Made by a program: the position numbers and the translations under genes. From a virus, in IMG/VR virus record IMGVR_UViG_3300017917_002740, positions 30,390 through 94,389 of that record: DNA of 64,000 bases; one strand, written 5' to 3'. Below the pieces are notes generated by a model. The model did no database searches. It was not told the DNA's origin and saw only the letters and a program-made list of their open reading frames with translations. Of this stretch, positions 16,081-51,926 are shown piece by piece (position 1 is the first letter of the stretch; every line of letters begins with the position of its first letter).

Positions 16081-16111
16081 ATTATAATCCCAGAATGAGC
16101 AAATGCTCTAA

Positions 16112-16118: not shown

Positions 16119-16140
16119 CCCAATATTTTAAAAGCCGAAT

Positions 16141-16147
16141 GTAAATA
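16141..16147 (+). promoter_or_regulatory. Late promoter motif GTAAATA, near-leaderless
   Basis: GTAAATA on the plus strand with only 5 nt to ATG 16153, and no purine-rich ribosome site between. By the geometry of T4 late promoters the mRNA would start at or next to the start codon. Confidence 0.45.
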
Positions 16148-16152
16148 AATGT

Positions 16153-16440
16153 ATGTTCTTAAAGATAGAAATTCAAGAAAATCAATATACAAGACGCAGT
16201 AAATGCGGTGTTGAACACAATTTTGTTAGAACAAAAACTGTGGCTGTTCTTCGTTGTGATAATTGCGATGAAACTTTTTATAGAGATCTAAAACATATGG
16301 ATCGTAAGAGACTCAGCAACAATTATTTTCATTGTTGTAAAAATTGTGATCCTAAGAAATTTGCTCAACGTAAAGGAGTTGAGCAGAAAAAAATATGGGA
16401 TATGCCTGCCAGCGTAGAGCTACCAGTTTCTAAATTCTAA
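16153..16440 (+). CDS. Small Cys-rich zinc-ribbon protein, conserved phage hypothetical
   Basis: A 95-residue protein with two CxxC pairs (CDNCDET at about 37-43 and CCKNCD at about 62-67), consistent with one zinc ribbon. It is rich in Lys/Arg (TRRSKCG, HMDRKRLSNNYFHCC). I know similar short proteins from marine T4-like phage genomes, where the function is not known; nucleic-acid binding is plausible from charge and zinc site. Its 3' end overlaps the 3' end of the IscA gene by 11 nt. Confidence 0.7.
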   Translation: MFLKIEIQENQYTRRSKCGVEHNFVRTKTVAVLRCDNCDETFYRDLKHMDRKRLSNNYFHCCKNCDPKKFAQRKGVEQKKIWDMPASVELPVSKF

Positions 16441-17678: not shown

Positions 17679-17693
17679 TATTTATTGTAAATA
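17679..17693. promoter_or_regulatory. Divergent late promoter pair
   Basis: AATAAATA on the minus strand (17679-17686), 5 nt from the sodB start, and GTAAATA on the plus strand (17687-17693) facing the small gene at 17713. The two motifs abut, so late transcription would leave in both directions from one site. Confidence 0.55.
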
Positions 17694-17712
17694 AAGCACA
17701 GGAGGATTTATC

Positions 17713-17907
17713 ATGTTTGGATTTTTAAAAAAGCTATTTGGTTCTGCCGATCTTAACAAAGACGGTAAAGTAGATGCCGCTGATGCTAAAGTTGCGGTTG
17801 AAGCTGTTAAAACTGAAGCTAAAGAAGTAGTTGCTAAAACTAAAACTACTGTTAAGAAAGCAGCCAACAAAGCTAAATCACAGCGTAAGCCAAAATCAAA
17901 GGCCTAA
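17713..17907 (+). CDS. Small EF-hand/dockerin-like, Lys/Ala-rich protein
   Basis: A 64-residue protein with an excellent AGGAGG site 7 nt before the ATG. After MFGFLKKLFGSA comes one calcium-loop-like sequence, DLNKDGKVDAAD (residues 13-24), then a helical Ala/Val/Lys stretch and a strongly basic tail (KAKSQRKPKSKA). One EF-hand loop plus a basic tail could bind Ca2+ and nucleic acid, or interact with a structural protein. No family name can be given. Its last codons overlap the convergent uvsE by 12 nt. Confidence 0.7.
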   Translation: MFGFLKKLFGSADLNKDGKVDAADAKVAVEAVKTEAKEVVAKTKTTVKKAANKAKSQRKPKSKA

Positions 17908-18924: not shown

Positions 18925-19117
18925 CACTTCCACAGTCTATGCGCCACGGACAGCGCATTAGTACATCAGTTGAACAGTCATCCTCACCCCAACATTCTGG
19001 GGGTTCAGACCCGCGAAGCTGTTTAATTTCAGCATGAATCATCCAACGGAACTCATTGTTTTGACCAGAATTGGCCAATCGAGCCTCTTTGTCTAACAGT
19101 TGTTGAATAGCAGTCAT
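18914..19117 (-). CDS. Small phage protein upstream of uvsE
   Basis: A 67-residue protein with a helical N-terminus (TAIQQLLDKEARLANSG) and a C-terminal part with four cysteines (CWGEDDCSTDVLMRCPWRIDCG). It is preceded by a consensus sigma70-type promoter, and its stop overlaps the uvsE start, so it is likely a real early gene coupled to uvsE. I do not recognise a family function; the Cys spacing could hold a metal. Confidence 0.65.
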   Translation of the reverse strand: MTAIQQLLDKEARLANSGQNNEFRWMIHAEIKQLRGSEPPECWGEDDCSTDVLMRCPWRIDCGSDDA

Positions 19118-19123
19118 ACTACT

Positions 19124-19152
19124 ATTATAACACTGTTAGTGCCAATTGTCAA
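19124..19152 (-). promoter_or_regulatory. Consensus sigma70-type early promoter
   Basis: TTGACA (19147-19152) and TATAAT (19124-19129) on the minus strand with a 17-nt spacer, a perfect match to the bacterial housekeeping consensus. It lies within and just past the 3' end of the glycosyltransferase gene and drives the 67-residue gene and uvsE. Confidence 0.85.
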
Positions 19153-19939
19153 CTACAAATTTATCCTGAACGTCTTGTGGTTTGGGTTCGCCGTGAAACA
19201 CAGTTACACAGCAGTCTGGATGCACTTCTACTGAGTGATCTGTTTCTTTGAACTGTCTTTTACCATTTAATACTACCAATTCTTCTCTACTACGTATTTC
19301 CCATTTGTAACTTTGGATCCATTCTTTGGGCCAAAATTTTATCTGTGTCTGGCATAGTTTCCAAATCCAATCTTGATCACCTTGAAGTTTTTGAGCTTCT
19401 TTGGGATTCTCTTTAAATTTTTCCCAGATATGATGCTGAGTACCGTGATTCCAAGCCATTACAGAACTATTCAAATATTTCCATGATGCATAAAATTTTC
19501 TGTTGAAATCGTGTATTCCTAAAAATTCTGTAGGATATATTTTGGCCAACTTGTCTATGTTGTTATGAATAACTACGTCTAAGTCGAAATAAAGAATTCT
19601 TCCCCGTAATGGTAATCTTGCATCAAACATATGAACCTTATGCCACCAACCCTTTTGATATTGTGCATTAGGTTGATAAATGGTAGTAACACCTTCAATG
19701 TGATGTTGATCGTCGGTTAAACAATAAAATTCGTAGGGTACAGTAAGATGTCGCGAAACCATATTTCGCAAACGTTCTACATATTCCTTACTATATCGAT
19801 TACCAAATCTTACGCAAAGAACATTAATTTTCTCAGTGGAGTTTCCAAATAGCTCTGATAAATCTTCTGGAGAACTATTACCTTTGGCTAATCTTTTTTC
19901 AGCTTTAAGCCTGCGCTTTTCTTCTTTTGACAATTCCAT
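19136..19939 (-). CDS. GT-A fold glycosyltransferase (GT8-like)
   Basis: A 267-residue protein with a highly charged 20-residue N-terminal helix (ELSKEEKRRLKAEKRLAKG), then a Rossmann-like GT-A domain: INVLCVRFGNRYS, YEFYCLTDD, KGWWHKVHMFD, and the metal/nucleotide-sugar DxD motif D119-L-D121 in ILYFDLDVVI. QGDQDWIW and a late VFHGEPKP (metal-binding His) fit the family. It probably transfers a hexose to a surface or phage component. It overlaps kdsA by 35 nt in the same operon. Related proteins are frequent in T4-like cyanophages. Confidence 0.82.
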   Translation of the reverse strand: MELSKEEKRRLKAEKRLAKGNSSPEDLSELFGNSTEKINVLCVRFGNRYSKEYVERLRNMVSRHLTVPYEFYCLTDDQHHIEGVTTIYQPNAQYQKGWWHKVHMFDARLPLRGRILYFDLDVVIHNNIDKLAKIYPTEFLGIHDFNRKFYASWKYLNSSVMAWNHGTQHHIWEKFKENPKEAQKLQGDQDWIWKLCQTQIKFWPKEWIQSYKWEIRSREELVVLNGKRQFKETDHSVEVHPDCCVTVFHGEPKPQDVQDKFVVDNWH

Positions 19940-20744
19940 CGATTTCTATCAGTTCTTCCAAAATGTTGTAAAGATTATCAATTTTAATCATATTAGGTCC
20001 GTCGCTGGGAGCGTTATCTGGATCTTCGTGGCACTCCATGAAAATGCCTGCAACTGATCCGGTAGCTACAGCGGCCCTCGCCAAGTAGGGTACCATCTCG
20101 CGATCTCCGCCTGAGACTGTTCCCATTCCGCCAGGCTGCTGTACAGAATGTGTTGCATCAAAGACAACGGGATAACCAGTACGTTCCATAATAGGTAAAC
20201 TGCGCATGTCAACCACAAGATTATTGTATCCATGAGTATATCCTCTTTCACAAAGCATGATGCGTTCATTACCAGTTGATGCTATCTTGGCTGCAACGTT
20301 TTTCATATCATGCGGAGCAAGGAACTGTCCTTTTTTAATATTAATAGCTCGACCAGTATTTCCAGCAGCCAAAAGCAAGTCGGTCTGTCTGCAAAGAAAA
20401 GCAGGAATTTGTATAACATCAACTCCGGCATCTGCTATTAATTCTGCTTGATAGGATTCATGAATATCTGTAAGTACAGGAATACCAAACTCGTGTTTAA
20501 TTGAATTAAGTACCTTAAGGCCTTCATCGATACCTATTCCTCGTTTAGTTCCTATACTGCTTCTGTTGGCTTTATCGAAACTGCTTTTATAGATAAGATC
20601 AATATCTAATTTATCGCAGATATCTTTGATACGACCTGCAGTTTCTTCTGCATGATCTTGGCTTTCTATTTGACAGGGACCAGCAATGAGAAAAAATTTA
20701 TTTTCATTGCTGGCAACGATTCGGTTAATTGAAAATGTACGCAT
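19905..20744 (-). CDS. kdsA: KdsA, 3-deoxy-D-manno-octulosonate 8-phosphate synthase
   Basis: A 279-residue enzyme, the family's usual length, joining phosphoenolpyruvate and arabinose-5-phosphate to Kdo-8-P for LPS inner core. Clear motifs: FLIAGPCQIES, FDKANRSS, GIPVLTDIHE, DVIQIPAFLCRQTDLL, NIKKGQFLAPHDM, PVVFDATHSVQQPGG, MECHEDPDNAPSDGPN. A longer frame to 20813 exists but would overlap queD by 47 nt. ATG 20744 is preferred because it gives the family N-terminus and sits 5 nt after a CATAAATA late motif. Kdo points to a Gram-negative host and to surface-glycan remodelling. Confidence 0.94.
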   Translation of the reverse strand: MRTFSINRIVASNENKFFLIAGPCQIESQDHAEETAGRIKDICDKLDIDLIYKSSFDKANRSSIGTKRGIGIDEGLKVLNSIKHEFGIPVLTDIHESYQAELIADAGVDVIQIPAFLCRQTDLLLAAGNTGRAINIKKGQFLAPHDMKNVAAKIASTGNERIMLCERGYTHGYNNLVVDMRSLPIMERTGYPVVFDATHSVQQPGGMGTVSGGDREMVPYLARAAVATGSVAGIFMECHEDPDNAPSDGPNMIKIDNLYNILEELIEIDGIVKRRKAQA

Positions 20745-20749
20745 ATAAT

Positions 20750-20757
20750 TATTTATG
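20750..20757 (-). promoter_or_regulatory. Late promoter motif CATAAATA for kdsA
   Basis: CATAAATA on the minus strand with 5 nt to ATG 20744 and no ribosome site between; a near-leaderless transcript is expected. Confidence 0.55.
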
Positions 20758-22817: not shown

Positions 22818-23921
22818 TCAACTATTTCCAATTTTGCCAAAGGGTTCCCATAGACCTGGTGTTCCGGCTTGAACACAAACCCAACCTACGTATTGATTAA
22901 TTTTTGGTTCTGAATTCCACACAATATCTCCGGCATTGTATGATCCAGCAGTAGGAGATGAACGATCAACTCTCTGTAACCTATTTCCAAACTTAACTGA
23001 TCCTGCAACATGAAGATCGACATCTGGATCAGGAGTATTCACTTTGATCGATAATTTTCCATGAACTGAAACCTGTACTGGTGGAAGTTTAGGATTACCT
23101 AAAGAAATATTACCAGCAGAAGAAACAGAAATTCTTGTGGTATTATCTGTAACTATATCAAAAGTGTGACTGGCATATGTACCGATAAACCCTTTGCTAA
23201 AATCTTTACTTCCTAAAACAATCTCAATACCGTCTTCTACAATTGCAAACGCAGAGTGGGGTTCTTCTGTTCCTAATCCCAATCTGTTTGTTTCGTTACT
23301 AAAATTTAAATATTGTCCAATTGAAACATCACCGTCAACGATTAAACCTTGTAATCTACCTACTTGTCTAAGATGACTCTTGGTAATGGTTGGACCTAAT
23401 TCTTCTTCGCTGAATAATTTTATTCCGTTAACAGTAACACTTTTGCCTCTGCCTAAATCGATGTCTTCTGAACTAAAAAATCTATCAGGATTTGATGCAA
23501 AAATAAACTGTTTGGTATTACCAGCACCGGACCATAATAATCCTTTGCCTTCCAAGCTATCTCCTGAAAATACAATAGGAGTGTCTTTTTCAAATTTTAT
23601 ATCGGCTCTGATTTCTTTTACTTCTAATATATTAGTTTTAAGAGTACCAGATACTGTGAGGTCGTCGATATGTTCGGCCTTTAAATTTCTAATATGTACA
23701 CCGTCGTCTTTGACCGTGATCTGAGTCTTTGATGCCTGATCGGAAATTCCTGCACTACTAAAATTTTGTACAGTGCCACCGTTGATATGATCGCCGCTTA
23801 GGGATCTTAAAGGAATTTTTTTAACAAAGGACTTGGGATCAGTCATAAAACTGTCTGGCTCCATGCCCTTTAATGCATCCGCCAGTGCCGCTAAGGCTTG
23901 ATCAATGTTGTTTTTGTTCAT
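22818..23921 (-). CDS. Fibre-type structural protein
   Basis: 367 residues from ATG 23921; an in-frame TTG at 23945 lies across the late promoter and is rejected. The N-terminus is a short helix (NNIDQALAALADALKGM) that may attach the protein, followed by beta repeats (LKAEHIDDLTVSGTL, GKGLLWSGAGNTKQFIF, LGLGTEEPHSA, VGWVCVQAGTPGLWEPFG). It is the longer member of a tandem pair with the next gene; the stop TGA and the next ATG are 2 nt apart (TGATCATG). Confidence 0.7.
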   Translation of the reverse strand: MNKNNIDQALAALADALKGMEPDSFMTDPKSFVKKIPLRSLSGDHINGGTVQNFSSAGISDQASKTQITVKDDGVHIRNLKAEHIDDLTVSGTLKTNILEVKEIRADIKFEKDTPIVFSGDSLEGKGLLWSGAGNTKQFIFASNPDRFFSSEDIDLGRGKSVTVNGIKLFSEEELGPTITKSHLRQVGRLQGLIVDGDVSIGQYLNFSNETNRLGLGTEEPHSAFAIVEDGIEIVLGSKDFSKGFIGTYASHTFDIVTDNTTRISVSSAGNISLGNPKLPPVQVSVHGKLSIKVNTPDPDVDLHVAGSVKFGNRLQRVDRSSPTAGSYNAGDIVWNSEPKINQYVGWVCVQAGTPGLWEPFGKIGNS

Positions 23922-23928
23922 GATAAGG

Positions 23929-23936
23929 TATTTATC
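23929..23936 (-). promoter_or_regulatory. Late promoter motif GATAAATA for the paired fibre genes
   Basis: GATAAATA on the minus strand with 7 nt to ATG 23921. It follows directly after the terminator of the preceding early operon, so it starts a new late unit. Confidence 0.55.
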
Positions 23937-30456: not shown

Positions 30457-30463
30457 TTAAATA
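30457..30463 (+). promoter_or_regulatory. Late promoter motif TTAAATA for the radical-SAM cluster
   Basis: GTTAAATA ten nt before ATG 30474, at the head of a nine-gene plus-strand operon. A match to the phage late promoter core. Confidence 0.5.
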
Positions 30464-30473: not shown

Positions 30474-31574
30474 ATGAATACCTATACGCAAATTGAACCT
30501 TTTGGTACACCGCATTTTCAAATTACCTGGGAAGCTACTTTAAAATGCAATTTGGATTGCAGCTATTGTAGCCCCAATGATCACAACAATAAGATACCTC
30601 ATCCAAAATTAGAGGACTGTCTTAAGACTGTAGACTTTCTTTTGGAATATGTCGATGTGTATATGCAGAACAAAAATCCTGCTCATCGAAATGCAGGCTT
30701 CAATGTGTTCGGCGGTGAAAGCCTTTTCCATCCAGACATTGTAGAAATACTGACTTACATTAAAGAACAGCATAAAAAATACGAACATCGCTGGACTATG
30801 GCAGTGCAGACTGTGACAAACGCTGTAGTCAAAGAAAAAATTTGGAAAGAAATTGTTCCTTTGATTGATTACTTCACTGTAAGTTATCATAGCGAAGCAA
30901 CCGTAGAACAGCAAGATTTGGTAAGACAAAATTTATTAATGCTGAAAGCAAACAACAAAAGATTTACCTGTTCTATATTGATGCATGCAGGACGATGGGA
31001 CAATTGTCAAAGCATGATACAATGGTGCAAGGACAACGATATTCCTCATCTTCCAAGACAGATAGATCACAGTTGGCATGATCTAAAATTTTGGTATAAC
31101 AAAGAACAAACACAATGGTGGAATGAACATAGAGGTATTGACACTGACATTCCCCTACACAAAAAAATTATCAATATCGTAAATTTAGACAGTCAAGGTC
31201 GTAGCTGTTGTGGAGGAACTGAGCTAAGTGTTAATGGTAATACTTCTTGTTCACAGACATACATACCAGGTAATAATTTTAAAGGCTGGAGTTGCAGTGT
31301 AAATTACTTTTTTGCCTATGTAAAACAGGTGACCAAAGAAGTATTTTTAAACAAAGATTGCATGATGAACTTTGACGGCAAAGTAGCACCTATAGGAACT
31401 GTAGATCAAGGTGCTGAAATCATAGCAGATCTAAAAAGAAATTTTGCCAACAATACTATGCCTGTGGTTACCTGTGCCAAGTCTAAGTGCTGGTGTGGAT
31501 TGTGCGCTCCTAAGGCGCACGACAGATCGACTTTCGATACTATGATGGAAAAGTATGTCACAGATACCGTTTGA
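30474..31574 (+). CDS. Radical SAM protein with C-terminal Cys cluster
   Basis: 366 residues. The [4Fe-4S]/SAM motif is CNLDCSYC (C25, C29, C32), followed by the SAM-contact GGES of FNVFGGESLFHPDI. The C-terminal part has many Cys (SCCGGTELS, GWSC, CAKSKCWCGLC), so an auxiliary cluster of SPASM/twitch type is likely. It opens the cluster's first operon and overlaps the next radical-SAM gene by 20 nt. Related to SPASM-type rSAMs, with no known substrate; peptide- or small-molecule-modifying members both exist. Confidence 0.88.
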   Translation: MNTYTQIEPFGTPHFQITWEATLKCNLDCSYCSPNDHNNKIPHPKLEDCLKTVDFLLEYVDVYMQNKNPAHRNAGFNVFGGESLFHPDIVEILTYIKEQHKKYEHRWTMAVQTVTNAVVKEKIWKEIVPLIDYFTVSYHSEATVEQQDLVRQNLLMLKANNKRFTCSILMHAGRWDNCQSMIQWCKDNDIPHLPRQIDHSWHDLKFWYNKEQTQWWNEHRGIDTDIPLHKKIINIVNLDSQGRSCCGGTELSVNGNTSCSQTYIPGNNFKGWSCSVNYFFAYVKQVTKEVFLNKDCMMNFDGKVAPIGTVDQGAEIIADLKRNFANNTMPVVTCAKSKCWCGLCAPKAHDRSTFDTMMEKYVTDTV

Positions 31575-41205: not shown

Positions 41206-41935
41206 TGTCAATAGCCCACTGTCTTTCTTTACACCAGAAACATTTACCGCATGTCGGAACATATTGTCCTGGTGTGTATGTTTGATAATCTATCTCTTTG
41301 AATTCGCCTTCGCAACTACGAGTCATCTCAAATAACGACATGAGATCTAATCTTATATATTGTTTAACTACCCAAGATTTTTCAACAAATCTAAAAGGAT
41401 GTATAGCCCACTTGTTCATATGTTGCATAATCCTTAGATGCTGATTATCTTCTGATGGTTCTATATCTCTTTCAACCATGCCATCGAAATCATGTCCTCT
41501 GGGATTGCGTGTTACAGCATTATAATAAGCATCGCAGTTTTCCCAATGACAGATATATTCAGCAAATGCTCGTTGCTCAATATTATCTCCGCTGACTAAT
41601 TTGTTATATTCATCTTTGAGAGACGGACCAATATTACCATATTCTAATTCTGGTGCAATAAAATTTGTATGTCTATAAAAGTTTATATTAGGAAATTTAA
41701 CTTTCATCCAATTAAAAATCTTTAAACTATCCCAACTCTGCCAGGGTCTTGTTTTCCACATGCGAGTATGGCTAATACAATGTATTTCAAAACCTTCTAT
41801 TTTTTTGTTAGTAATAATATCGCATAACAAGTAGGTCATTAAAGCACTGTCTGCACCGCCACTAAGGCCTATTGCAATTCTACGCCAGTGTGTGTCGAAT
41901 GGAATTACTACACCATCAATGTTGTAGTTGAGCAT
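41195..41935 (-). CDS. QueC/ExsB-like PP-loop ATP pyrophosphatase
   Basis: 246 residues with the PP-loop SGGADSALM (25-33), a HTRMWKT segment and a C-terminal CGKCFWCKER, close to the QueC zinc-site pattern. It is not the queC at the left edge and is too divergent for a certain substrate. PP-loop enzymes adenylate a carboxylate or amide oxygen, then add ammonia or sulfur. Sits between a PLP-type enzyme and a twitch rSAM in one overlapping operon. Confidence 0.75.
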   Translation of the reverse strand: MLNYNIDGVVIPFDTHWRRIAIGLSGGADSALMTYLLCDIITNKKIEGFEIHCISHTRMWKTRPWQSWDSLKIFNWMKVKFPNINFYRHTNFIAPELEYGNIGPSLKDEYNKLVSGDNIEQRAFAEYICHWENCDAYYNAVTRNPRGHDFDGMVERDIEPSEDNQHLRIMQHMNKWAIHPFRFVEKSWVVKQYIRLDLMSLFEMTRSCEGEFKEIDYQTYTPGQYVPTCGKCFWCKERQWAIDNAK

Positions 41936-42782
41936 TTTCTAAATACCTTATCAGCGGACTGACACCTACAGGTTCACCGTTGCGCAAAGCCAGATGTATA
42001 CTTCTCGTAGGAGTTAATTCGAAGTCTCTGCAGACTTTGTAATAGCGTTCACCGTGTGTAAGCCATAGGTAATCCGAAGGAAGATTTCTTACAAAGTGTA
42101 GACCGATCATTGCCAATGCACGATTGTTCATACGAAAGTCGTTCATAATGGTAATGGCATCTGGTTTAGTTTCTTTGGTCCATCTAAGTCCAATTCTATT
42201 CCACCCCAGTCCTAAACCTTTGCTTAGGCTAATACCAACAGATACCACAGCAGGGTGATCAAAATTGAAATCAACAGAGCGGCTACACGTGATCCATGCT
42301 CCGTCGATGTGTACTGGTATATTTTTCTTAATACATTCATCTAATATTTCTCCCATGTCAGGATGAATTCTTCCTATTTGCGGAAACGGTAATGCTATGA
42401 TTAATGGAACTCCAGGTATCAGCGATCCTATATCTTTGACCGCTGTGGCCAATTTTAATCTTTCGTGATATCTATAATCTCCTGAGATAACCTGTACAGG
42501 TCCATTCATATATACAGTATCAATAAATTGAGTACACCCGATGATTATGTCTTTTCTTGTGTAAGAATCAAGACCAGTAATTTGGTTAAACGGGCTATTT
42601 AAAATCCATTGTTCAGCTTCTTGTTTAAAATTGTCGTAGACTGTGTCAGAGATATCTTTGTCTAACTTCCCACTGAGAACTTCCAAAATTAGAGATTCAA
42701 TTTTACGATCGCTGAGTGTCTGTGGTCTATCGATTTCCAAAAAGTCGCTGCTGTACTCTGGAGCAATTTTATTTCTAATCAT
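41916..42782 (-). CDS. PLP-dependent fold-type I enzyme (aminotransferase-like)
   Basis: 288 residues. IPVHIDGAWITCSRSVDF contains the Asp (D160) that binds the pyridine nitrogen, and VGISLSKGLGLGWNRIGLRW the PLP-lysine (K188), as in class I/II aminotransferases and decarboxylases. It is about 80-100 residues shorter than typical and may be reduced. First gene of a four-gene minus-strand operon, with CTTAAATA 4 nt before the ATG. Overlaps the PP-loop gene by 20 nt. Confidence 0.75.
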   Translation of the reverse strand: MIRNKIAPEYSSDFLEIDRPQTLSDRKIESLILEVLSGKLDKDISDTVYDNFKQEAEQWILNSPFNQITGLDSYTRKDIIIGCTQFIDTVYMNGPVQVISGDYRYHERLKLATAVKDIGSLIPGVPLIIALPFPQIGRIHPDMGEILDECIKKNIPVHIDGAWITCSRSVDFNFDHPAVVSVGISLSKGLGLGWNRIGLRWTKETKPDAITIMNDFRMNNRALAMIGLHFVRNLPSDYLWLTHGERYYKVCRDFELTPTRSIHLALRNGEPVGVSPLIRYLENAQLQH

Positions 42783-42786
42783 GATA

Positions 42787-42816
42787 TATTTAAGCCATTA
42801 TAATAGCACATAAATA
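42787..42816. promoter_or_regulatory. Divergent late promoter pair
   Basis: CTTAAATA on the minus strand (42787-42794) and CATAAATA on the plus strand (42809-42816), each only 4 nt from its start codon (42782 and 42821), without a ribosome site between. Both genes would be transcribed as leaderless or near-leaderless mRNAs. Confidence 0.6.
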
Positions 42817-42820
42817 TTTT

Positions 42821-43489
42821 ATGCTCAACTCTACCAATTATACAGTACCTCAAGACATACTACAACAGGCAGTAAATTCTATTCCTGGTATCGATTCTCG
42901 CTTGTCGTTAAATCAGCCAACTGGTAGATTTTTTAATGACCCGTGGGAACTCAAACCCGAGTTCAAAGGCACAGTTTGGGAAACTATATTGAATATTTTG
43001 GATGAACCAAAAGGCGAAGCTCGATTAATTAAATTAACACCAGGTGAATCATATCCCAGCCATGCTGACATTGACGATCGCTGGCACCTTGCTCTAACAG
43101 GAAATAACTCTTATCTAATAGATTTAGAAAACTGTGTGATGCACCGAACAGACAAAAATGGAATATGGTACAGCATGAATGCAGGTCACAGGCACACAGC
43201 AGCAAATTTTGGCAGTGAAGACAGAATTCAGTTGGTAGTTCGAAAATTATTGCCGATGCCAAATATTAAAAATCCGGTTGAAGTTGCTATCACTTTAAAA
43301 ACAGTAGTTGAAGATCGTAGATTTATATTCGACGATGTAATTAGTCCGTGGTTAAATTATGCTTACAAAAAAGGAATAGTGGATAATTTTAAAGGTGAAG
43401 ATTTAATTGCTACTATGACAGTAGAATCAGATCATGTTGATGAATTAACAGAATTAACCAAAGAATATTTTGTGTTGGCCATAAAATGA
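42821..43489 (+). CDS. 2OG/Fe(II) oxygenase-like, aspartyl-hydroxylase type
   Basis: 222 residues. ARLIKLTPGESYPSHADID gives H81-x-D83, followed by VMHRTDKNGIWYSMNAGHRH (H123/H125) and R135 (SEDRIQLVV), matching the aspartyl/asparaginyl beta-hydroxylase fold (HxD...H...R). The substrate is unknown. Operon head; the next gene starts in its last codon. Confidence 0.72.
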   Translation: MLNSTNYTVPQDILQQAVNSIPGIDSRLSLNQPTGRFFNDPWELKPEFKGTVWETILNILDEPKGEARLIKLTPGESYPSHADIDDRWHLALTGNNSYLIDLENCVMHRTDKNGIWYSMNAGHRHTAANFGSEDRIQLVVRKLLPMPNIKNPVEVAITLKTVVEDRRFIFDDVISPWLNYAYKKGIVDNFKGEDLIATMTVESDHVDELTELTKEYFVLAIK

Positions 43490-44184
43490 ATATAGATAAT
43501 TGGACACCTTTTTATAAAATCAATCCAGATGATGGGCAGCTTATAGAAACAAATTTGATTTATACGCCATTGATAAGCCCAGACGGTAAAATATTCTGTA
43601 TGAATTTTGACCATCAGCATTCTTATCAAAACGAACAATTAGCACATTGGTTACCTCATAGGCCTTACTATACCAAAGAAATGGTCAACTTCTTTTTTAA
43701 TAGAGAACTAAAATATCTTACGGTATTTGCCAACAGATCTTGGGCACCTAAGGTATTAGAAATAGACATAGAAAAACAACAGATCTTTTTTGAATGGTCT
43801 GGAGAAACCTGTAATCAAATAGTTTACACAGACAAAAAGATTGAAGATTATTGTCCTGATTGGAAAGCACAGATGTTGTCCATACTAAAAGACATAGTTG
43901 TCAGCGGCTACTACAAAACCAGTTTGTATCCTCACTGTTATTTTATTAGCAATGGTCAATTAAAAACTTTTGACTTTTACGGTTGTGTAGAAATCAAAGA
44001 TCCCTATGTGTCTATAAATGATATTAAAGGTATGATCGGAGAAACATCTGGTCCTCGATTTGAAGCAGCAGTCAAGGACAATATGTTAAATGTTGAAATA
44101 CTGTTTAAAGATGCTCTAAAAACTTGGGTTAAATGGCCCGACGATGTACTGCCTATGTTTTACGAGGAGTTATTTGGTGATTAA
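43486..44184 (+). CDS. Kinase-fold-like protein, paralogue of 51222-51926
   Basis: 232 residues with a two-part sequence like small kinases: an N-terminal beta-rich part (APKVLEIDIEKQQIFFEWSG) and a C-terminal YKTSLYPHCYFISNGQLK then FDFYGC that lines up with the HxN/DFG region of APH/Bud32/Rio-type kinases, but without a clear catalytic Asp in the first position. It resembles the gene at 51222-51926 over most of its length. Either a degenerate kinase or a binding protein. No family recognised. Confidence 0.5.
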   Translation: MNIDNWTPFYKINPDDGQLIETNLIYTPLISPDGKIFCMNFDHQHSYQNEQLAHWLPHRPYYTKEMVNFFFNRELKYLTVFANRSWAPKVLEIDIEKQQIFFEWSGETCNQIVYTDKKIEDYCPDWKAQMLSILKDIVVSGYYKTSLYPHCYFISNGQLKTFDFYGCVEIKDPYVSINDIKGMIGETSGPRFEAAVKDNMLNVEILFKDALKTWVKWPDDVLPMFYEELFGD

Positions 44185-44761
44185 ACTCGTAGGCAATTTT
44201 AATAATTTAATCAACTGGAATGACGTTGTCTCGCACCTCGAAGACACAGAACAGCCTATTGTAAAAAGAGCAGCACCTGAGTATTGGTTAGAACCTACTA
44301 TATTAGAACCAGGATATAACAGTTCTGGTACTGAAAGAAACTTAGATAAAGAAATGTGCGATAGTTGGGTAGCTGCCAATTACTTTTTTGATTCGGCAGT
44401 ATGGTTAGTATATCGAGTCGGTGTACATTATCCGCAGTCCTTAGAAGATTTGATCTGTCAGCAATTAAACATCTCAGTAAATTGGTCTGTGATTAATAGA
44501 GTTGATCCTGGACGCACAGTTCCACTGCACATAGATCCTGACGATAATCCAGAATTTGATGGAGATAAAAAAGTAAGATTCATCTGTCAGATATCTCTTC
44601 CTGCTCGTGGACAGGTTTTAACAGTTGGTGATCAAGCATTAACGAATTTGCAGGTAGGGGATATGTATCAATGGGATAATTATTTAGAACAACATTCTGC
44701 TGCCAATGCTGGATTAACTCCGGTATATTATTTTTCTATTGAGGGATTCAGTCGTGATTAA
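44177..44761 (+). CDS. 2OG/Fe(II) oxygenase-like
   Basis: 194 residues from GTG 44177, where GAGGAG lies 7 nt upstream and decides the start against a more distal in-frame ATG (44144). RTVPLHIDPDDNPEF gives H118-x-D120; H173 (EQHSAANAG) is the third ligand; VGDMYQWDNYLEQ is a typical late strand. The usual oxoglutarate Arg after the last His is not obvious. Pairs with the next gene. Confidence 0.65.
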   Translation: MIKLVGNFNNLINWNDVVSHLEDTEQPIVKRAAPEYWLEPTILEPGYNSSGTERNLDKEMCDSWVAANYFFDSAVWLVYRVGVHYPQSLEDLICQQLNISVNWSVINRVDPGRTVPLHIDPDDNPEFDGDKKVRFICQISLPARGQVLTVGDQALTNLQVGDMYQWDNYLEQHSAANAGLTPVYYFSIEGFSRD

Positions 44762-45263
44762 TTGGGATGAAATTATCGGTAGTCTTTTTAATGGTGTGCC
44801 TATTACTGCTGATAAAAGTAAATGGAATCTTTCAACCCCCGGCTACTTAGAAATTTACAAATCATGGGAAGATGCTAAGTTTAATATGAGCGCAATTAAA
44901 TGGATTAATTATTATCCCAGAACACACTATCCAGAAGAAGTAGATACTAAGATGTGTGAGCAGTTGGGTATCAATAAATTACGAGCTTGGATTAGTAGAA
45001 TAGATCCTGGTTATTGCGCACCTTGGCATTGGGACGTTGACGACAATGAAGAACAATATCTTAGTCTTGGAGAAATACAAAGATACAGTTGTTTTATCAG
45101 CAAACCTGCCAATGGGCAAATGTTTCAGTTAGGCAATCAGTATTATACTGCGCAGCCTCAAGGTACTATTGTTAAATGGGACGATTACAAACAATGGCAT
45201 GCTGGAGTTAATGCTGGGACTACTTCTAAGTTTATGTATCACATTATGGGGTATAGGCACTGA
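44754..45263 (+). CDS. 2OG/Fe(II) oxygenase-like
   Basis: 169 residues from GTG 44754, with GAGGGA before it. CAPWHWDVDDNEEQY gives H92-x-D94 and YKQWHAGVNAG the third His (H149). It resembles the previous product (ISRIDPGYCAPWHWD vs INRVDPGRTVPLHID) over the whole length, so the two arose by duplication. Its end overlaps the convergent 45244-45765 by 20 nt. Confidence 0.65.
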   Translation: MINWDEIIGSLFNGVPITADKSKWNLSTPGYLEIYKSWEDAKFNMSAIKWINYYPRTHYPEEVDTKMCEQLGINKLRAWISRIDPGYCAPWHWDVDDNEEQYLSLGEIQRYSCFISKPANGQMFQLGNQYYTAQPQGTIVKWDDYKQWHAGVNAGTTSKFMYHIMGYRH

Positions 45264-45765
45264 TCTGCAGCGTTAATCTTGTAGCCATACTAATATTAAC
45301 TACTCCGTGATAGCACATGGGGTCATCCCATAAAAACAAATCACCAGCTTTGTAATCAGCTAACAGATAATTATCATAGACAAAAACGTGTCCAGGTTGA
45401 TAATCTAACAAAGGCATAGTCCATCTTTGACATTTTGAAACTTGTGTGACGTGAGGATCAAAATGCATGGGCTGCATCTGACCAGGTTTTAATTTAATGA
45501 TCCACCAATGGTATTCACCTTCGATATCTATAGGCATTTTAATATCTAAATGTTTTAAACAATCTGTATTCTTAGTATACTGGCAGAAGTGATGATTCCC
45601 AGCAGGATAACCAGCTTGTTCTATAGCTGTACGTGCTGCATCAAATTCAGGAGTACCTCTCCATTTTTCAGGTTGATACACAGGTGTAACATCACCATCG
45701 TTGTTAAGTAGGATGTCTAATAGTTCTGGAGTAATCCAGTCTCGATAATTGCCTATGAGTTTCAT
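45244..45765 (-). CDS. 2OG/Fe(II) oxygenase-like
   Basis: 173 residues: MQPMHFDPHVTQ (H101-x-D103), DYKAGDLFLWDDPMCYHGVVN (H153) and R163, the HxD...H...R pattern of prolyl-hydroxylase/AspH-type folds. The start KLIGNYRDWIT parallels IKLVGNFNNLINW of the 44177 gene. Shares the last five-gene minus operon with two radical SAM genes. Confidence 0.7.
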   Translation of the reverse strand: MKLIGNYRDWITPELLDILLNNDGDVTPVYQPEKWRGTPEFDAARTAIEQAGYPAGNHHFCQYTKNTDCLKHLDIKMPIDIEGEYHWWIIKLKPGQMQPMHFDPHVTQVSKCQRWTMPLLDYQPGHVFVYDNYLLADYKAGDLFLWDDPMCYHGVVNISMATRLTLQISAYTP

Positions 45766-46568
45766 TAATACGACTCTATATGATCTATGCCTAACTTTTT
45801 ACGGAATTCGTCTGTGAACTTTCCGTCAATGCGCAGACTATAGCTGGGCTCCATAATTCGTTCACCACCATGCCAGTCTTGATCATTCCACCATGCGGCA
45901 CGAGTGTTTAGATATATTTTGTTTTTGTGTTCAGGGTCCCAGATGTAAAATGCTTTCTTTGTATTGGGTCTTATGTGTATGAATTCATTACGATGAGGAA
46001 ATGTAACATTCATACCGTTCTTGGCATCGAGGTCTCTATGTTCGAAAGGAATGCCATCTGCTTCACAATGGAAAAATATAACACGTCCGATATGCTCGAA
46101 TAAATTTTGATCAATAAGCTGTTCGACCCATTTAACTACATTAGGAAAATAAGCAGCTTCTGGAGTTAACTTACGAGGAGCAGTACGATCGTCCCAAGAA
46201 CCTTCTTCCCATAGGAAATAATAAATGTACGGGTCATATGCGCCCATGGCCATTTTTAAGAATCTTGTGAATTTGTTTCTCTGTTGATAATTGCCAAAGT
46301 CTCGGTACAACGGCATTCCAGCAACCTTGATAGGATCATCATCTGGCAATGCTAAGAATTCATCTTTGGCCTTGTATATAGGTTTCCAGTGAGGTTGATA
46401 ACTCATTCGCTCAAAGGTAAAGCCCGGGGCCATCCATGTACCTTCTTTGGCATATTCTCTGGCTTCAGCAAAACCTCTAATGATTTCAGGCTGTAGTCGA
46501 TCAAACTCAGCCATGTCTAAGTAAGACTCTAAATCAAAATAAGGTTGATGATTAATACCTTTGATCAT
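45765..46568 (-). CDS. 2OG/Fe(II) oxygenase-like, aspartyl-hydroxylase type
   Basis: 267 residues. RVIFFHCEADGIPFEHRDLD gives H177-x-D179; DWHGGERI contains H233; R246 follows (SYSLRIDGK). Overlaps the radical-SAM gene by one base at each end (46568 and 45765), so both genes must be translated in sequence. The catalytic arrangement is that of the AspH/cupin 2OG family. Substrate unknown. Confidence 0.68.
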   Translation of the reverse strand: MIKGINHQPYFDLESYLDMAEFDRLQPEIIRGFAEAREYAKEGTWMAPGFTFERMSYQPHWKPIYKAKDEFLALPDDDPIKVAGMPLYRDFGNYQQRNKFTRFLKMAMGAYDPYIYYFLWEEGSWDDRTAPRKLTPEAAYFPNVVKWVEQLIDQNLFEHIGRVIFFHCEADGIPFEHRDLDAKNGMNVTFPHRNEFIHIRPNTKKAFYIWDPEHKNKIYLNTRAAWWNDQDWHGGERIMEPSYSLRIDGKFTDEFRKKLGIDHIESY

Positions 46569-47455
46569 TACACATCTCTGGCTTTTTGTTTGGCCAATGG
46601 CCAGATCACTTTTTCAATCCTGTTCTCTGGGCATAGGTTACACTGCGGTATAATTTCTAACAATGTATCTGTAAAGTGTTTGATAAATTCGTCAGAGTCA
46701 TAGGGACTGCAGGCACGATATTGATTAAGCAGATCAACTGCTCGCTGTTCAACATTAAACTGATTGACAAAGTCGTCTTTGAAAGCAACCAAGTGACACT
46801 TGTATAAATGACCTTTTACAAAATAATGACACTTGTTGGCAGAACAATTTTCATGAGCAATCGCAGGATCGCTGTCGTGTAAGTAGATAACACCGTCACG
46901 AATTTCTTTTCTACTGCTGGTGTGTAGTTTCCAACGCTGTCTAATATCAGCTACTAACTTTCCATCCACATAGTATTGTTTACCTGGATCTTCAAATTTA
47001 CGACCCAAGGTTGTTTTGGTTATTTCTGTGGTTGTATAAGTGTACTTGGATAATAATTCTTCTACATGAAACTTAGTTTCGTCGTAGTGTGAGGGATCGT
47101 GTACAGATATGTCTAACCATATGCCAAGATCGATGATGTCCTGAGTTAGTTCTTTGTTTGTACCAAAATATGTGCCGTTGGTGACCACAGAAAAGTCTGT
47201 GATCTCTGGCCAAAGTTTTCTAAGATTGTAGGCCCAGTTCCATAGGTCTGGATTAGCATAGGGTTCGCCACCCAGAATATTCATCATGTCTACGCTAAGG
47301 ATTTTTGACCAATCCTCGTAGTAGGCTCTGTAGTCCTCAAACTTATAGTGTCCTTTGAAAACCTTGTCATTGTAGGTTATGCAGTTGTCACAGGTGAGAT
47401 TACACACATTGGTAATGTAGTGATCGCCTTCTAATATTCTATATTTTTTAGTCAT
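46568..47455 (-). CDS. Radical SAM protein, paralogue of 50289-51176
   Basis: 295 residues with CNLTCDNC (C18, C22, C25), NILGGEPYANPDLWNW, VTNGTYFG, and a C-terminal half with CHYFVKGHLYKCHL, ENCSANKC and QCNLCPENR, which could bind a second cluster. It matches the gene at 50289-51176 throughout (same ITYND..FKGH.KF, HDSDPAIAH). Overlaps the next gene upstream by 4 nt. Confidence 0.88.
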   Translation of the reverse strand: MTKKYRILEGDHYITNVCNLTCDNCITYNDKVFKGHYKFEDYRAYYEDWSKILSVDMMNILGGEPYANPDLWNWAYNLRKLWPEITDFSVVTNGTYFGTNKELTQDIIDLGIWLDISVHDPSHYDETKFHVEELLSKYTYTTTEITKTTLGRKFEDPGKQYYVDGKLVADIRQRWKLHTSSRKEIRDGVIYLHDSDPAIAHENCSANKCHYFVKGHLYKCHLVAFKDDFVNQFNVEQRAVDLLNQYRACSPYDSDEFIKHFTDTLLEIIPQCNLCPENRIEKVIWPLAKQKARDV

Positions 47456-48489
47456 CGTCTTTGATATTTAACCGGTACTTCATCCTGTAATTTCATGCCC
47501 TTGTTTATCACAGCATCACGTAGCATTACCTGATGCATCAAGTTGGTAGGCGGAACTCCTGGAACAAAACTGCCCCATGGACCGCATACCAGTTCGTCAA
47601 GGTCCACGCTTTTGGCATCAGCCCATTGTATGATCCTGTGGGTGGCGCCATTGATCTTAACCATGTAGTGATAGATATTGTCGTCAGCTAAGATCTTTTC
47701 CCATGTATAATTTAATTTGGTAACCTGTCTATACACTTCATAGACCAATTCACTCAAGAACAATCTGGGTTCGTCTGGACAACGTCCTATGTCTGCGCCG
47801 CCCCTGATCCTAAATTCTTCTACAAAGTCTTTGAATGTCTGTATTTCTTCAAGTATAAAAGGAATTTGATCTATGCTGGATAATGTGTAATTTATATTCT
47901 TAATTCTTAGGCCAACTTCACGACAATTTTGTATGGCCTGCAGTTGTTTCTTATGTACTGCTTCACCCTGATAGTCAGGATGGTTTAGACCTACGGTGAC
48001 AAATTCGCAACCTGCTGCGATCAGCTGTTTACAAAAATCCATGCTGCTGAGTTTTAGTCCATTGGTCAGCACATTAAGCTCTCTGTTGGTTTTAGTTCTA
48101 ATAGCAGTGATCAATTCACAGAGGTCATTGCGCATGGTCGGCTCAGCACCTGCCAGAGTCACACTATACCCATCATCGGGGAATGAGTTGATCTGATCTA
48201 TGATAGAGTCTATGGACTTGTCTTTCTTTTTGTTATCTGGTTCTTGATAGCAGTGCGGGCAGGTAAGATTGCAGCGATCAGTTACTTCAAGCACATATCC
48301 GCCTGCGTCATAGTGTTCAGGATGATGCTTGAGTGTTTCTTGGAATATTTTTTCACGCTCGATCATATGTTCAGAATAACCATGCTCTGGGCAGGTTTTA
48401 CTGATCCACAACTCTCTGCCTCGTTCAAATCTGTGTGCTGGTATGTGTCTGTAGCAGATCTCGCACAATGACATAGTTTCTTTGATCAT
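47452..48489 (-). CDS. Radical SAM protein with N-terminal zinc motif (Tes/MJ0619-like)
   Basis: 345 residues. An N-terminal Zn module (C9, C12, then C33, H36 in CEICYRHIPAH ... SKTCPEHG) precedes the core CNLTCPHC (C73, C77, C80). This domain order occurs in the archaeal MJ0619 methyltransferase and Tes tetraether synthase families, which act on lipids or pterins at unactivated carbons. LAGAEPTMRND replaces GGEP. It may catalyse C-C bond formation or methylation (inference from family). Operon with a 2OG oxygenase upstream (4-nt overlap). Confidence 0.78.
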   Translation of the reverse strand: MIKETMSLCEICYRHIPAHRFERGRELWISKTCPEHGYSEHMIEREKIFQETLKHHPEHYDAGGYVLEVTDRCNLTCPHCYQEPDNKKKDKSIDSIIDQINSFPDDGYSVTLAGAEPTMRNDLCELITAIRTKTNRELNVLTNGLKLSSMDFCKQLIAAGCEFVTVGLNHPDYQGEAVHKKQLQAIQNCREVGLRIKNINYTLSSIDQIPFILEEIQTFKDFVEEFRIRGGADIGRCPDEPRLFLSELVYEVYRQVTKLNYTWEKILADDNIYHYMVKINGATHRIIQWADAKSVDLDELVCGPWGSFVPGVPPTNLMHQVMLRDAVINKGMKLQDEVPVKYQRR

Positions 48490-49127
48490 TGCGGTACTCC
48501 GTTGATCATAAAAGGCAAACTAATACGGCTGCCGTAGTCGTTGGGCCAGCCTTCGGGTGCCTGTGCCACCACCATGTGATTCATCCATCCTGGCCACAAA
48601 ATTAAATCACCTTCTTCTACGTCTACGGTGATCTCTAATGAACCTTTGGGAAAGCTGCTGCGTATATGTGGTTCGTACAACAGAGCATGAGGATGTTCAA
48701 ACACCATTTGTTGTACTCCTTGACATTCAAGATATAGGCCACCGCCGATTAAAAATTCTGAATGATTGTGCATAAAGCCAATACCAGAAATATAAGTCTG
48801 GCACCACATGTCTGTGATCTCAGGTTTGAGAGTTTTATCTACTCTAAGTGTATCAAAATAATTGAGAACATGTGGCATGATTTGCTCTATGGCCGATTGC
48901 ATCTCAGGTCTAAGATGCAGTAGTTTTCCATTTGGATCCATGGTATCTTTGGTCGGAAATGTGCTGTAATTTGGACTACCTCCGGTGCTGGTACCGATCC
49001 ATGGTGGAATAAGTGCATCTGGTTGTGACCATAACTCATTGAGATAGGGAAGAATGCCGTTTAGTATTTCTCGGCTGTTGGCTATTTTGGTACGGATAAT
49101 TGGGCTGGGGAACCAGTATTCAGTCAT
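48486..49127 (-). CDS. 2OG-Fe(II) oxygenase-like (family-5-like)
   Basis: 213 residues starting TEYWFPSPIIRTKI, with SGIGFMHNHSEFLIGGGLYLE (H120/H122 and E124 as likely metal-site residues), VEEGDLILWPGWMNHMV (H184) and R201. This is the pattern of the 2OG-FeII_Oxy_5 group. Heads the five-gene minus operon; CATAAATA lies 5 nt before the start. The substrate is unknown. Confidence 0.75.
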   Translation of the reverse strand: MTEYWFPSPIIRTKIANSREILNGILPYLNELWSQPDALIPPWIGTSTGGSPNYSTFPTKDTMDPNGKLLHLRPEMQSAIEQIMPHVLNYFDTLRVDKTLKPEITDMWCQTYISGIGFMHNHSEFLIGGGLYLECQGVQQMVFEHPHALLYEPHIRSSFPKGSLEITVDVEEGDLILWPGWMNHMVVAQAPEGWPNDYGSRISLPFMINGVPQ

Positions 49128-49132
49128 GAAAA

Positions 49133-49162
49133 TATTTATGTGCGCATTTTATCCAATAAATA
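49133..49162. promoter_or_regulatory. Divergent late promoter pair
   Basis: CATAAATA on the minus strand (49133-49140), 5 nt from ATG 49127, and AATAAATA on the plus strand (49155-49162), 6 nt from ATG 49169. No ribosome site intervenes. The same arrangement occurs at 42787-42816 and 51181-51212. Confidence 0.6.
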
Positions 49163-49168
49163 TTTTCA

Positions 49169-50305
49169 ATGGAACTCAACTATCACCTGGACAATTTACC
49201 AAATCATCAGATCATCAAAACTGAAGGTTATTGGAACTATACCGTCAATAAAAAATTATTAGATCCTTTATGCGGTAATACTTCGTTTATCTTTGGTTAT
49301 AACAATAAATCGATCTTAGACTCGATGTACAAACTGCAATCCCAGATAGGCTTCTTGCGTGGTATGAGCAACGAGACCTGTAACGAAAATCAAGAATTGC
49401 TGACGGAGATCTGTCAACGTGGCGGATTTGACAGCGTGGCCTGGGCAGTCAGCGGCAGTGATGCTGTGGAAGCTGCTGTCTATATCAATGACGAATACTG
49501 GCGCAAATTAGAAAAGGATCGTCCTACCATAGTTACATTTACACCAGGTTATCACGGCACAACTTATCTGGCAAAACTTTTTAGAGAAGAATATCCCACA
49601 GGCGAACGTGCCGCGGTCATAGAACGTAGTCTTGATGATGCTGACACATTGTTGACCTTGGAAACTCTGTTAGAACTAAATCCCAAGATTGGAGCAGTAT
49701 TGATAGAGTCTGCACCGTGGAATGGCGGTCTTAGATTATGGTCGCAGGCATGGTGGAATGATCTTAGGCTCCTATGCGATCAATACAACATCAATTTAAT
49801 AGTAGATGATGTATTAGGAGGAGTGGGCAAGTTAGGACATTTCTTTAGTCACCAAAGATACGGAATACAGCCAGACATCGTGGCCATGGGCAAAGCATTG
49901 ACCAATGGTTATAGTCCTCTGGGCTGTGCCTGCACTACCAAGCGGATTTCCAATGTGATCAAAGATTCTTGGAATTTCGGTCATACCTGGTCGCCCAATA
50001 TGGCTGGCATTGGTGCTGCATTAGAAGTCTGTAAGATCTATGACACCATAGACTTTAATGCCATAGAAATGCGGTTAAAAAAGTTAGGTGACGAATTAAA
50101 AGCAGCAGGTCTGATCAAGGATTACACAGCAGCAGGACTTTTGTTTTACATCACGTTAGATAAAACTTATTCGCCAGATGCTCTATACACAGCAGGCATC
50201 AACGGCACGCTCAACGATAATAATGGCATATTCATCTGTGCGCCTGCTATTGCTGACAGCGAGTATTTTTCTGAATTATCTAATAGACTTAGATCTTTTC
50301 TTTAA
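49169..50305 (+). CDS. Class III aminotransferase (PLP)
   Basis: 378 residues of the BioA/GSA-type class III family: AVSGSDAVEAAV (98-region), TFTPGYHGTTY, LIVDDVLGGVGKLG (D213 at the pyridine nitrogen) and MGKALTNGYSPLGC with the PLP lysine K242. It transfers an amino group from or to a carbonyl substrate. All key residues are kept, so it should be active. Single-gene plus unit that ends convergently with 50289, overlapping 17 nt. Confidence 0.9.
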   Translation: MELNYHLDNLPNHQIIKTEGYWNYTVNKKLLDPLCGNTSFIFGYNNKSILDSMYKLQSQIGFLRGMSNETCNENQELLTEICQRGGFDSVAWAVSGSDAVEAAVYINDEYWRKLEKDRPTIVTFTPGYHGTTYLAKLFREEYPTGERAAVIERSLDDADTLLTLETLLELNPKIGAVLIESAPWNGGLRLWSQAWWNDLRLLCDQYNINLIVDDVLGGVGKLGHFFSHQRYGIQPDIVAMGKALTNGYSPLGCACTTKRISNVIKDSWNFGHTWSPNMAGIGAALEVCKIYDTIDFNAIEMRLKKLGDELKAAGLIKDYTAAGLLFYITLDKTYSPDALYTAGINGTLNDNNGIFICAPAIADSEYFSELSNRLRSFL

Positions 50306-51176
50306 CCGGCTTTAACGGATATAGTTTCTTATTGATCCTATACTCTGGACAGAGCTTACACTGCGGAACTGGTTCTTCTAATGCTCCTATGAAACTTGAT
50401 ATTTTTTCATTGGAGTCAAATGGACTACAGAAATCAGATTCATTTAGTAATTGTTTAGATGCAGGATCAATATTAAATTGATTGGTTAGATCCTCGTGTA
50501 TAGAAGTTAGAAAACACTTGTATAGGTCGCCCCTGACTACGTAATGACATAATCTTGCCTTGCAGTTTTTGTGAGCTATTTCTGGATCGCTGTCATGCAT
50601 GTGAATAATACCGTTGTGTATCATCTTAGTTGAGTGTGTGCCAAACTCATAGACCTGACTGAGCTTAACAGCCAGTCTACCATCTACATAATAATTTTCT
50701 TCTTGATAGGTAGCATTGGTCATGTTAGTGCCGATAGTGATATCTTTGCTGTAATCGTACACAGATAAAATTTCTTCAACTTGACTTTTGGCACGATCAT
50801 AGTGAGCAGGATCGTGCAATGAAATATCTAACCATAAACGTTGATCAATGATAGCTCGAGAAAGATCCGTTTCGTGTAGATATGTGCCATTGGTACAGAC
50901 ACAAAAATCTTCAAGGTCTGGCCAACATTGTCTCAGTCCTATAACCCAATTCAACAAGTCTGGATTAGCATAGGGCTCACCGCCCAAAATACAGATCTTA
51001 GGCGGCTGTAAAATTTCTCCCCAACGCTGACATTTATCTTGGTAGTCTGCGAATTTAAAATGACCTTTGAATCTTAGATCATTGTATGTGATACAATTTT
51101 CACAGGTAAGGTTACACACATTGGTAATGTAAAAGCACAGATAGGCTTCTGTGATCATTGTGAATTTTGGATCCAT
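50289..51176 (-). CDS. Radical SAM protein, paralogue of 46568-47455
   Basis: 295 residues from ATG 51176; the open frame goes on to 51443 but that part runs through the divergent gene and across the promoter. CNLTCENC (C21, C25, C28), ILGGEPYANPDLLNW, CTNGTYLH, HDSDPEIAHKNC, LCHYVVRGDLYKCFL, QCKLCPEYR. Same length and order of motifs as its partner. Preceded by AATAAATA at 4 nt. Confidence 0.87.
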   Translation of the reverse strand: MDPKFTMITEAYLCFYITNVCNLTCENCITYNDLRFKGHFKFADYQDKCQRWGEILQPPKICILGGEPYANPDLLNWVIGLRQCWPDLEDFCVCTNGTYLHETDLSRAIIDQRLWLDISLHDPAHYDRAKSQVEEILSVYDYSKDITIGTNMTNATYQEENYYVDGRLAVKLSQVYEFGTHSTKMIHNGIIHMHDSDPEIAHKNCKARLCHYVVRGDLYKCFLTSIHEDLTNQFNIDPASKQLLNESDFCSPFDSNEKISSFIGALEEPVPQCKLCPEYRINKKLYPLKPVKEKI

Positions 51177-51180
51177 GCAA

Positions 51181-51212
51181 TATTTATTGGCAGTAATAAC
51201 AGCATATAAATA
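51181..51212. promoter_or_regulatory. Divergent late promoter pair
   Basis: AATAAATA on the minus strand (51181-51188), 4 nt from ATG 51176, and a perfect T4-type TATAAATA on the plus strand (51205-51212), 9 nt from ATG 51222. Supports ATG choice for both genes. Confidence 0.65.
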
Positions 51213-51221
51213 TTGCACACC

Positions 51222-51926
51222 ATGAAATTCCATTATTATTACAATCAAATTCCCGGAGGCGAGCCCTGGAGAAACAATTTGATTTACACCAGTTTGATCA
51301 GCGAGGACAAAAAAACTTTTGTCCAATGGTATCACAACGACAGCGAATATCACAAAGGCATGAATGAAGTTGTTGATCCAGCATTGATGAATGAAAAGTG
51401 GAGCAGAGAACTCTGCTTTCTTAATTACATGAATCGATGGCACCCAGAATCTGTGCCAGAAATTTTAGATATTGATTTATTGGAAAAAAAGATTTATTTA
51501 AAAATTGACGGTGTGGATCTATGGCAACGCAGTTTAGACAACCACAACTGCGCTTTTGATCAGATAGTGCCTGATTGGCAGGAACAGATGTTGGCCATAT
51601 TTAAAAATCATATAGATCTAAATCTATGGAAATACAGCCTTCACCCCAGCAGTTATTTCATTGTAGATGGTCAGTTAAAAAGCATAAACTACTTTTTCAC
51701 TTACAGCTCAGATGACGGTCCTATCACGGTCAGAGATCATCTCAGCCATATCAGCGAAGGTCGTAGAGCAGAAATGAAACCCAAGACAGAAGCCATGGGC
51801 ATAGACTGGGACACACCTCAAAGTCTGTATACCATGCAGATGTTGGCCTTTGAAAGTTTTAGAAGTAACTATCCCACGGACTTTATAGATCGAGCCAAGA
51901 GTCTTTATGACCACCTCAAAGATTAA
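51222..51926 (+). CDS. Kinase-fold-like protein, paralogue of 43486-44184
   Basis: 234 residues from ATG 51222, chosen because of the TATAAATA motif; an upstream TTG (51213) is inside the leader. KFHYYYNQIPGGEPWRNNL, PEILDIDLLEKKIYLKIDG, YSLHPSSYFIVDGQLKS follow the same order as the 43486 gene. The DFG-like position is INY rather than FDF, so phosphotransfer activity is doubtful. Sits next to a radical SAM gene in both loci (divergent here). Confidence 0.5.
   Translation: MKFHYYYNQIPGGEPWRNNLIYTSLISEDKKTFVQWYHNDSEYHKGMNEVVDPALMNEKWSRELCFLNYMNRWHPESVPEILDIDLLEKKIYLKIDGVDLWQRSLDNHNCAFDQIVPDWQEQMLAIFKNHIDLNLWKYSLHPSSYFIVDGQLKSINYFFTYSSDDGPITVRDHLSHISEGRRAEMKPKTEAMGIDWDTPQSLYTMQMLAFESFRSNYPTDFIDRAKSLYDHLKD

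Follow-up and report, generated by a model that had tools for sequence, protein, structure and literature searches.

Late promoters of phage T4 (gp55/gp33/gp45) have a TATAAATA-type -10 element, no described -35 element and a gp55-family sigma. The T4 motif lies at -13 to -6, which leaves five bases before +1 (PMC1524935). In Pectobacterium phage CBB, ATAAATA was described as a putative late motif with 35 sites, together with a gp55-like protein, and leaderlessness was not mentioned (PMC5259590). Leaderless mRNA is already known. In Sinorhizobium meliloti, 171 leaderless mRNAs were mapped, with +1 at the A of AUG and with AUG as the only start codon (PMC3616915). Phage annotation and promoter surveys usually presume a leader with a Shine-Dalgarno (SD) site, and no report of systematic use of leaderless mRNA in the T4 superfamily was found in the open-access full texts that we searched.

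We analyzed a window of 64,000 nucleotides, which comprises positions 30390-94389 of an IMG/VR virus record of 94,389 bases. The record encodes a T4-type family B DNA polymerase (phrog_262, E 2e-201). Its nearest cultured relatives are the polymerases of Sinorhizobium phage Phosso (50%) and Agrobacterium phage Atu_ph07 (46%), with Cronobacter phage GAP32 and CBB at about 42%; all of these are giant phages. The identity in this protein was 87-93% in the best 80 uncultured relatives, some of which lie on contigs of up to 280 kb. The phage belongs to a large, uncultured, widespread group of giant, T4-related phages. No nucleotide relatives of window positions 1-25000 were found among cultured phages, and viral contigs yielded no relatives of the 49169 aminotransferase. 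The best matches of KdsA were to Micavibrio and Acetobacteraceae (63%), followed mostly by Burkholderiales; the host of the phage was not assigned.

The clade shares the -10 element type, the lack of a described -35 element and the gp55-family sigma with T4, and the ATAAATA motif and the gp55 family with the related giant phages CBB and GAP32. It differs in where the motif stands. In T4, TAAATA precedes ATG by 4-6 nt only once, and its spacing peaks at 28 nt. CBB has no motif in the 4-6 nt range and 49 in the 16-35 nt range; the corresponding numbers for the clade are 124 and 195. In our best reading, gp55-type late promoters and some sigma-70 promoters of this clade are likely to make leaderless mRNAs, a strong inference drawn without RNA 5′ ends or Ribo-seq.

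In the mechanism that we propose, TAAATA would be the -10-like element of late promoters, read by a phage gp55-type sigma on host RNA polymerase, and the first transcribed base would be the A of the start codon or lie within 1-3 nt of it. The resulting late mRNAs would be leaderless and translated via recognition of the 5′-terminal AUG, not via SD pairing. A smaller gene set would use host-type sigma-70 promoters and be equally leaderless. The remaining late genes, including those for tail sheath, tube and baseplate, would have a T4-like late promoter, a leader and an SD site. The choice of mode is conserved for each gene. Recognition by the gp55-type sigma and translation from the 5′ AUG are both inferred.

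Promoter motifs and start codons in the window

The features of the window are as follows; strands are in parentheses.

16142..16147 (+) TAAATA, 5 nt before the ATG of 16153-16440(+); family 8/8 leaderless
17679..17684 (-) TAAATA, 5 nt before the ATG of the sodB-like gene 17116-17673(-)
17688..17705 (+) TAAATA (17688-17693), then AGGAGG (17700-17705); leadered promoter of 17713-17907(+)
19124..19152 (-) sigma-70 promoter TTGACA-17-TATAAT, 6 nt before the ATG of 18914-19117(-); putatively leaderless, host-type class
20750..20755 (-) TAAATA, 5 nt before the ATG of the kdsA-like gene 19905-20744(-)
23929..23934 (-) TAAATA, 7 nt before the ATG of 22818-23921(-), just past a terminator-like hairpin
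30458..30463 (+) TAAATA, 10 nt before the ATG of 30474-31574(+) (radical SAM)
41916..42782 (-) ORF, 288 aa, no Pfam match; predicted leaderless; 3/4 family members leaderless
42787..42792 (-) TAAATA late-promoter motif, 4 nt before the ATG of 41916-42782(-)
42811..42816 (+) TAAATA late-promoter motif, 4 nt before the ATG of 42821-43489(+)
42821..43489 (+) ORF, 222 aa, Asp/Asn beta-hydroxylase-like (weak); predicted leaderless
48486..49127 (-) ORF, 213 aa, 2OG-Fe(II) oxygenase-like (below curated cut-off); predicted leaderless
49133..49138 (-) TAAATA late-promoter motif, 5 nt before the ATG of 48486-49127(-)
49157..49162 (+) TAAATA late-promoter motif, 6 nt before the ATG of 49169-50305(+)
49169..50305 (+) class-III aminotransferase ORF, 378 aa; predicted leaderless
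50289..51176 (-) radical-SAM-like ORF, 295 aa (below curated cut-off); predicted leaderless
51181..51186 (-) TAAATA late-promoter motif, 4 nt before the ATG of 50289-51176(-)
51205..51212 (+) TATAAATA, 9 nt before the ATG of 51222-51926(+); predicted leader of a few nt
51222..51926 (+) ORF, 234 aa, no Pfam match; predicted near-leaderless

The first-pass annotation had claimed nine TAAATA-to-ATG spacings, and all nine held on direct reading and measurement. Six are those of the genes starting at 42782(-), 42821(+), 49127(-), 49169(+), 51176(-) and 51222(+) (4, 4, 5, 6, 4 and 9 nt, respectively), and three lie elsewhere, at sodB (17673(-)), kdsA (20744(-)) and the 16153(+) gene (5 nt each). The gene at 51222 had been grouped with the others; with 9 nt, a leader of a few nucleotides is expected there, not zero. 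The 30474-31574(+) gene likewise has a short leader, and it was excluded from the leaderless count.

Divergent gene pairs in the interval 42783-51221 include 41916-42782(-)/42821-43489(+) with two promoters in a 38-nt gap (42783-42820), and 48486-49127(-)/49169-50305(+) with a 41-nt gap (49128-49168). A built-in contrast is present upstream of sodB, where one 39-nt gap contains the leaderless sodB motif and the leadered, AGGAGG-bearing promoter of the divergent neighbor 17713.

Two further observations concern the surroundings of these genes. Between 30474 and 51926, genes of the radical-SAM, 2OG-oxygenase-like, beta-hydroxylase-like and aminotransferase types follow one another in a long series, frequently as divergent pairs. 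At 16090-16147 and in the orthologs, a conserved block of ~35 nt (TATTTAgcccaa..tttataagcc.aatg) adjoins the leaderless motif of the 16153 family on its 5′ side; this block is longer than a late promoter needs.

Spacing, inferred start site and translation signals in the clade

The survey covered ten IMG/VR records of the clade, 1.5 Mb in all with 1835 longest-ORF genes; gene starts were taken from our own ORF-calling script. TAAATA occurred 4-5 nt before ATG 118 times, compared with 8.7±2.5 (maximum 16) in 30 rounds of dinucleotide shuffles of the upstream regions. A genome-wide count of the spacing had been suggested in the first-pass annotation, which held that its reading would be refuted if the motif were equally frequent in random intergenic AT-rich DNA; in the shuffles it was not. 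The short spacing was also found outside positions 42783-51221 and in all relatives examined. In-frame starts showed a bimodal distribution of distances from TAAATA. ATG counts were 43, 75, 6 and 19 at 4, 5, 6 and 7 nt, giving a mode of 5; positions 11-13 nt were nearly empty, and a broad hump, which bears SD sites, followed at 14-35 nt. Other 6-mers of the same composition (four A, two T) gave no comparable peak, except words overlapping TAAATA or TATAAT. In 12 related records, ATAAATA-N3-6-ATG occurred 80 times, against 15 for a reversed control pattern. The motif and its spacing are shown by these counts.

Exact TATAAATA was rejected as the clade motif, being too strict: the window holds one copy, fewer than expected by chance. 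The TAAATA core is conserved, and the first T of the TATAAATA-type motif is often A, G or C. A variable first base is also seen in other T4-like phages.

The modal gap is exactly 5 nt, and with the T4 geometry, +1 is therefore inferred to be the A of the ATG. The -10 hexamer of a TTGACA-17-TATAAT promoter ends at -7. Since this is one base further upstream than the late motif, the sigma-70 class provides an independent check. In the clade genomes, ATG stood 5, 6 and 7 nt after such promoters in 9, 21 and 9 cases, with 0-2 at each remaining position below 19 nt. Two promoter types with geometries one base apart would thus both set +1 on the A of the ATG, although neither start has been mapped. 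The arrangement had been ascribed to late promoters; this part required correction, as it is not limited to them.

Bacterial RNA polymerase prefers to start on a purine (+1) preceded by a pyrimidine (-1). The base before ATG was C or T in 89% (A in 5%) of cases with a distance of 5 nt and C or T in 82% of the sigma-70 cases; the corresponding share was 46-48% among leadered late genes and among genes overall. The bias was weaker at 4 nt (62%; A, 2%). This -1 signature is shown; the actual start site is inferred.

In G001:69144-72658(+), four consecutive genes have a near-consensus TTGACA-17-TATAAT 6 nt before ATG. Several of these promoters share a ATACACACATG end, and the region is probably early.

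SD-like words were present in 6% of leaderless versus 58% of leadered genes with late promoters, and in 10% versus 66% of those with sigma-70 promoters. The first-pass annotation had claimed that no ribosome site intervenes, and the short class almost lacks such sites. The idea that the phage does not use SD sites was rejected, since the leadered genes have them. Start codons were 143 ATG to 5 GTG/TTG in the leaderless genes and 195 to 50 in the leadered genes (p=7e-7). The lack of SD sites and the ATG bias are shown.

The arrangement is conserved. In sodB orthologs, TAAATA lay 4-5 nt before the start in 32 of 37 distinct upstream sequences, at 7 nt in two, and was absent in three. The start is one codon further in for 14 of the 37 sequences, and in 12 of these the motif has shifted along and is still 5 nt away. 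The 142 leaderless candidates fall into 78 protein families. In 45 families, two or more members could be classified; 44 of these families were purely leaderless or purely leadered, compared with 14 on average and 23 at most when labels were shuffled. Therefore, the mode is a property of the gene. The claim of leaderless or nearly leaderless mRNAs is supported by the geometry, the SD scarcity, the ATG bias, the -1 pyrimidine and the orthologs, with the 5′ ends themselves inferred.

Twelve divergent pairs are predicted to be leaderless on both sides. The gap is 38-41 nt in seven, including 42783-42820 and 49128-49168. Such a gap leaves room for two promoters and little else, and we infer that simultaneous opening by two polymerases is hardly feasible. 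At G007_99, G008_22 and G008_25, the leaderless motif and ATG directly follow the apparent 3′ end of a tRNA gene.

Alternative explanations

The rival that survives best, although we consider it unlikely, is that the late promoters are real but longer mRNAs dominate expression, the leaderless RNA being a minor product. Longer mRNAs could come from upstream promoters or read-through, or translation could be coupled across an overlapping TAA stop. In favor of this, 84 of the 142 candidates follow a co-directional gene; in 41, the ATG is no more than 12 nt from a co-directional upstream stop, which would permit translational coupling within a longer transcript. On the other hand, the other 58 candidates face a divergent gene, many across gaps of 38-44 nt, and can have no leader from an upstream co-directional gene. 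Some candidates directly follow terminator-like hairpins or tRNAs. Furthermore, this rival does not need the precise spacing or the -1 signature.

In a second rival, very unlikely in our judgment, TAAATA acts in translation, for instance as unstructured AU-rich RNA that binds ribosomal protein S1, and the mRNA starts further upstream. AU-rich initiation regions without SD are indeed known. However, related A/T words show no peak, TAAATA also stands 14-35 nt before SD-bearing genes as expected of a T4-type late promoter, and the sigma-70 class follows the same one-base logic.

Chance, which a short motif in DNA of 61% A+T might suggest, is all but excluded by the excess over shuffles and by T4, CBB and Atu_ph07, which are more AT-rich and yet have 0-2 cases at 4-6 nt.

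Leaderless transcription thus remains the preferred reading. The absence of RNA and protein ends, the gene starts from our own script and possible coupling weaken single calls, not the pattern.

Distribution and possible function

A gp55-family late sigma (phrog_12791) is present in five of 13 clade records (E about 1e-80). The family was also detected in CBB and Phosso, with a weaker match in Pelagibacter phage HTVC008M (9e-17). No match was obtained in the record that contains the window, but this record is a fragment. TAAATA at 4-6 nt before ATG was counted twice each in Phosso and Atu_ph07 (400 kb covered in each), never in Syn9 and four times in P-SSM2 (220 kb), at most a trace of the short class. 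These four phages, T4 and CBB have 22 to 67 leadered motifs at 16-35 nt. A general habit of the T4 family was therefore rejected: T4, CBB, Phosso, Atu_ph07 and Syn9 have 0-2 short cases. HTVC008M has 13 motifs at 4-6 nt (11 at exactly 5) against 16 at 16-35 nt. Like the clade, it has a short-spacing class with a mode at 5 nt; unlike the clade, it is smaller (147 kb) and only distantly related, and no sigma-70 leaderless class was seen. Among the cultured phages compared, no other has this signature. Thus, the short spacing is a property of the clade and not a T4-family trait, and is apparently also present in this distant SAR11 phage. S. meliloti resembles the clade in its AUG-only starts and in +1 at the A of AUG, which is inferred in the clade. 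The S. meliloti transcripts are chromosomal and mapped, whereas those of the clade are phage-wide, come from two promoter types and are inferred from sequence.

Several enzymes (radical-SAM and 2OG types, Sod, KdsA and endonucleases) are among the leaderless families, as are terminase and a head-tail adaptor. Proteins of the tail sheath, tail tube, baseplate wedge and hub, and tail fibers are found in the leadered late set. Virion parts of high output may have SD leaders and low-dose products may be leaderless, but this is only a hypothesis, weakened by virion-like proteins in both lists. In a bolder reading, possible but rather unlikely, leaderlessness would be a regulatory channel, with a conserved division of the late genes into SD-driven virion genes (sheath, tube, baseplate) on one side and leaderless enzymes, terminase, Sod and KdsA on the other; the ribosome state during infection would set the balance, perhaps aided by phage bS21 and the absence of IF3.

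IF3 disfavors leaderless messages. Phage-encoded IF3 is present in two leadered relatives, Phosso (382560-382817, W02) and CBB (230744-231004, W10), and was not found in the 13 clade records, which are fragmentary, or in HTVC008M. Genes for bS21 occur in three clade records and HTVC008M, and also in the leadered Phosso. The IF3 and bS21 patterns are possible leads, weakened by the fragmentary records. The clade bS21 genes lie at G001:15466-15624(-), G003:140381-140539(-) and G006:22678-22833(+), in all three records just downstream of a gene family with a promoter 7 nt before ATG. Leaderless gene set A1 has single Pfam matches to CHASE2 (3.7e-38) and adenylate/guanylate cyclase (9e-15), a possible phage sensor cyclase.

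Two promoter types have apparently converged on a fusion of promoter and start codon in widespread giant phages, and orthologs keep the mode. With the mode conserved, whether translation mode forms a second layer of late-gene control becomes testable. For uncultured phages and pelagiphages, the spacing also offers a precise criterion for deciding where genes start.
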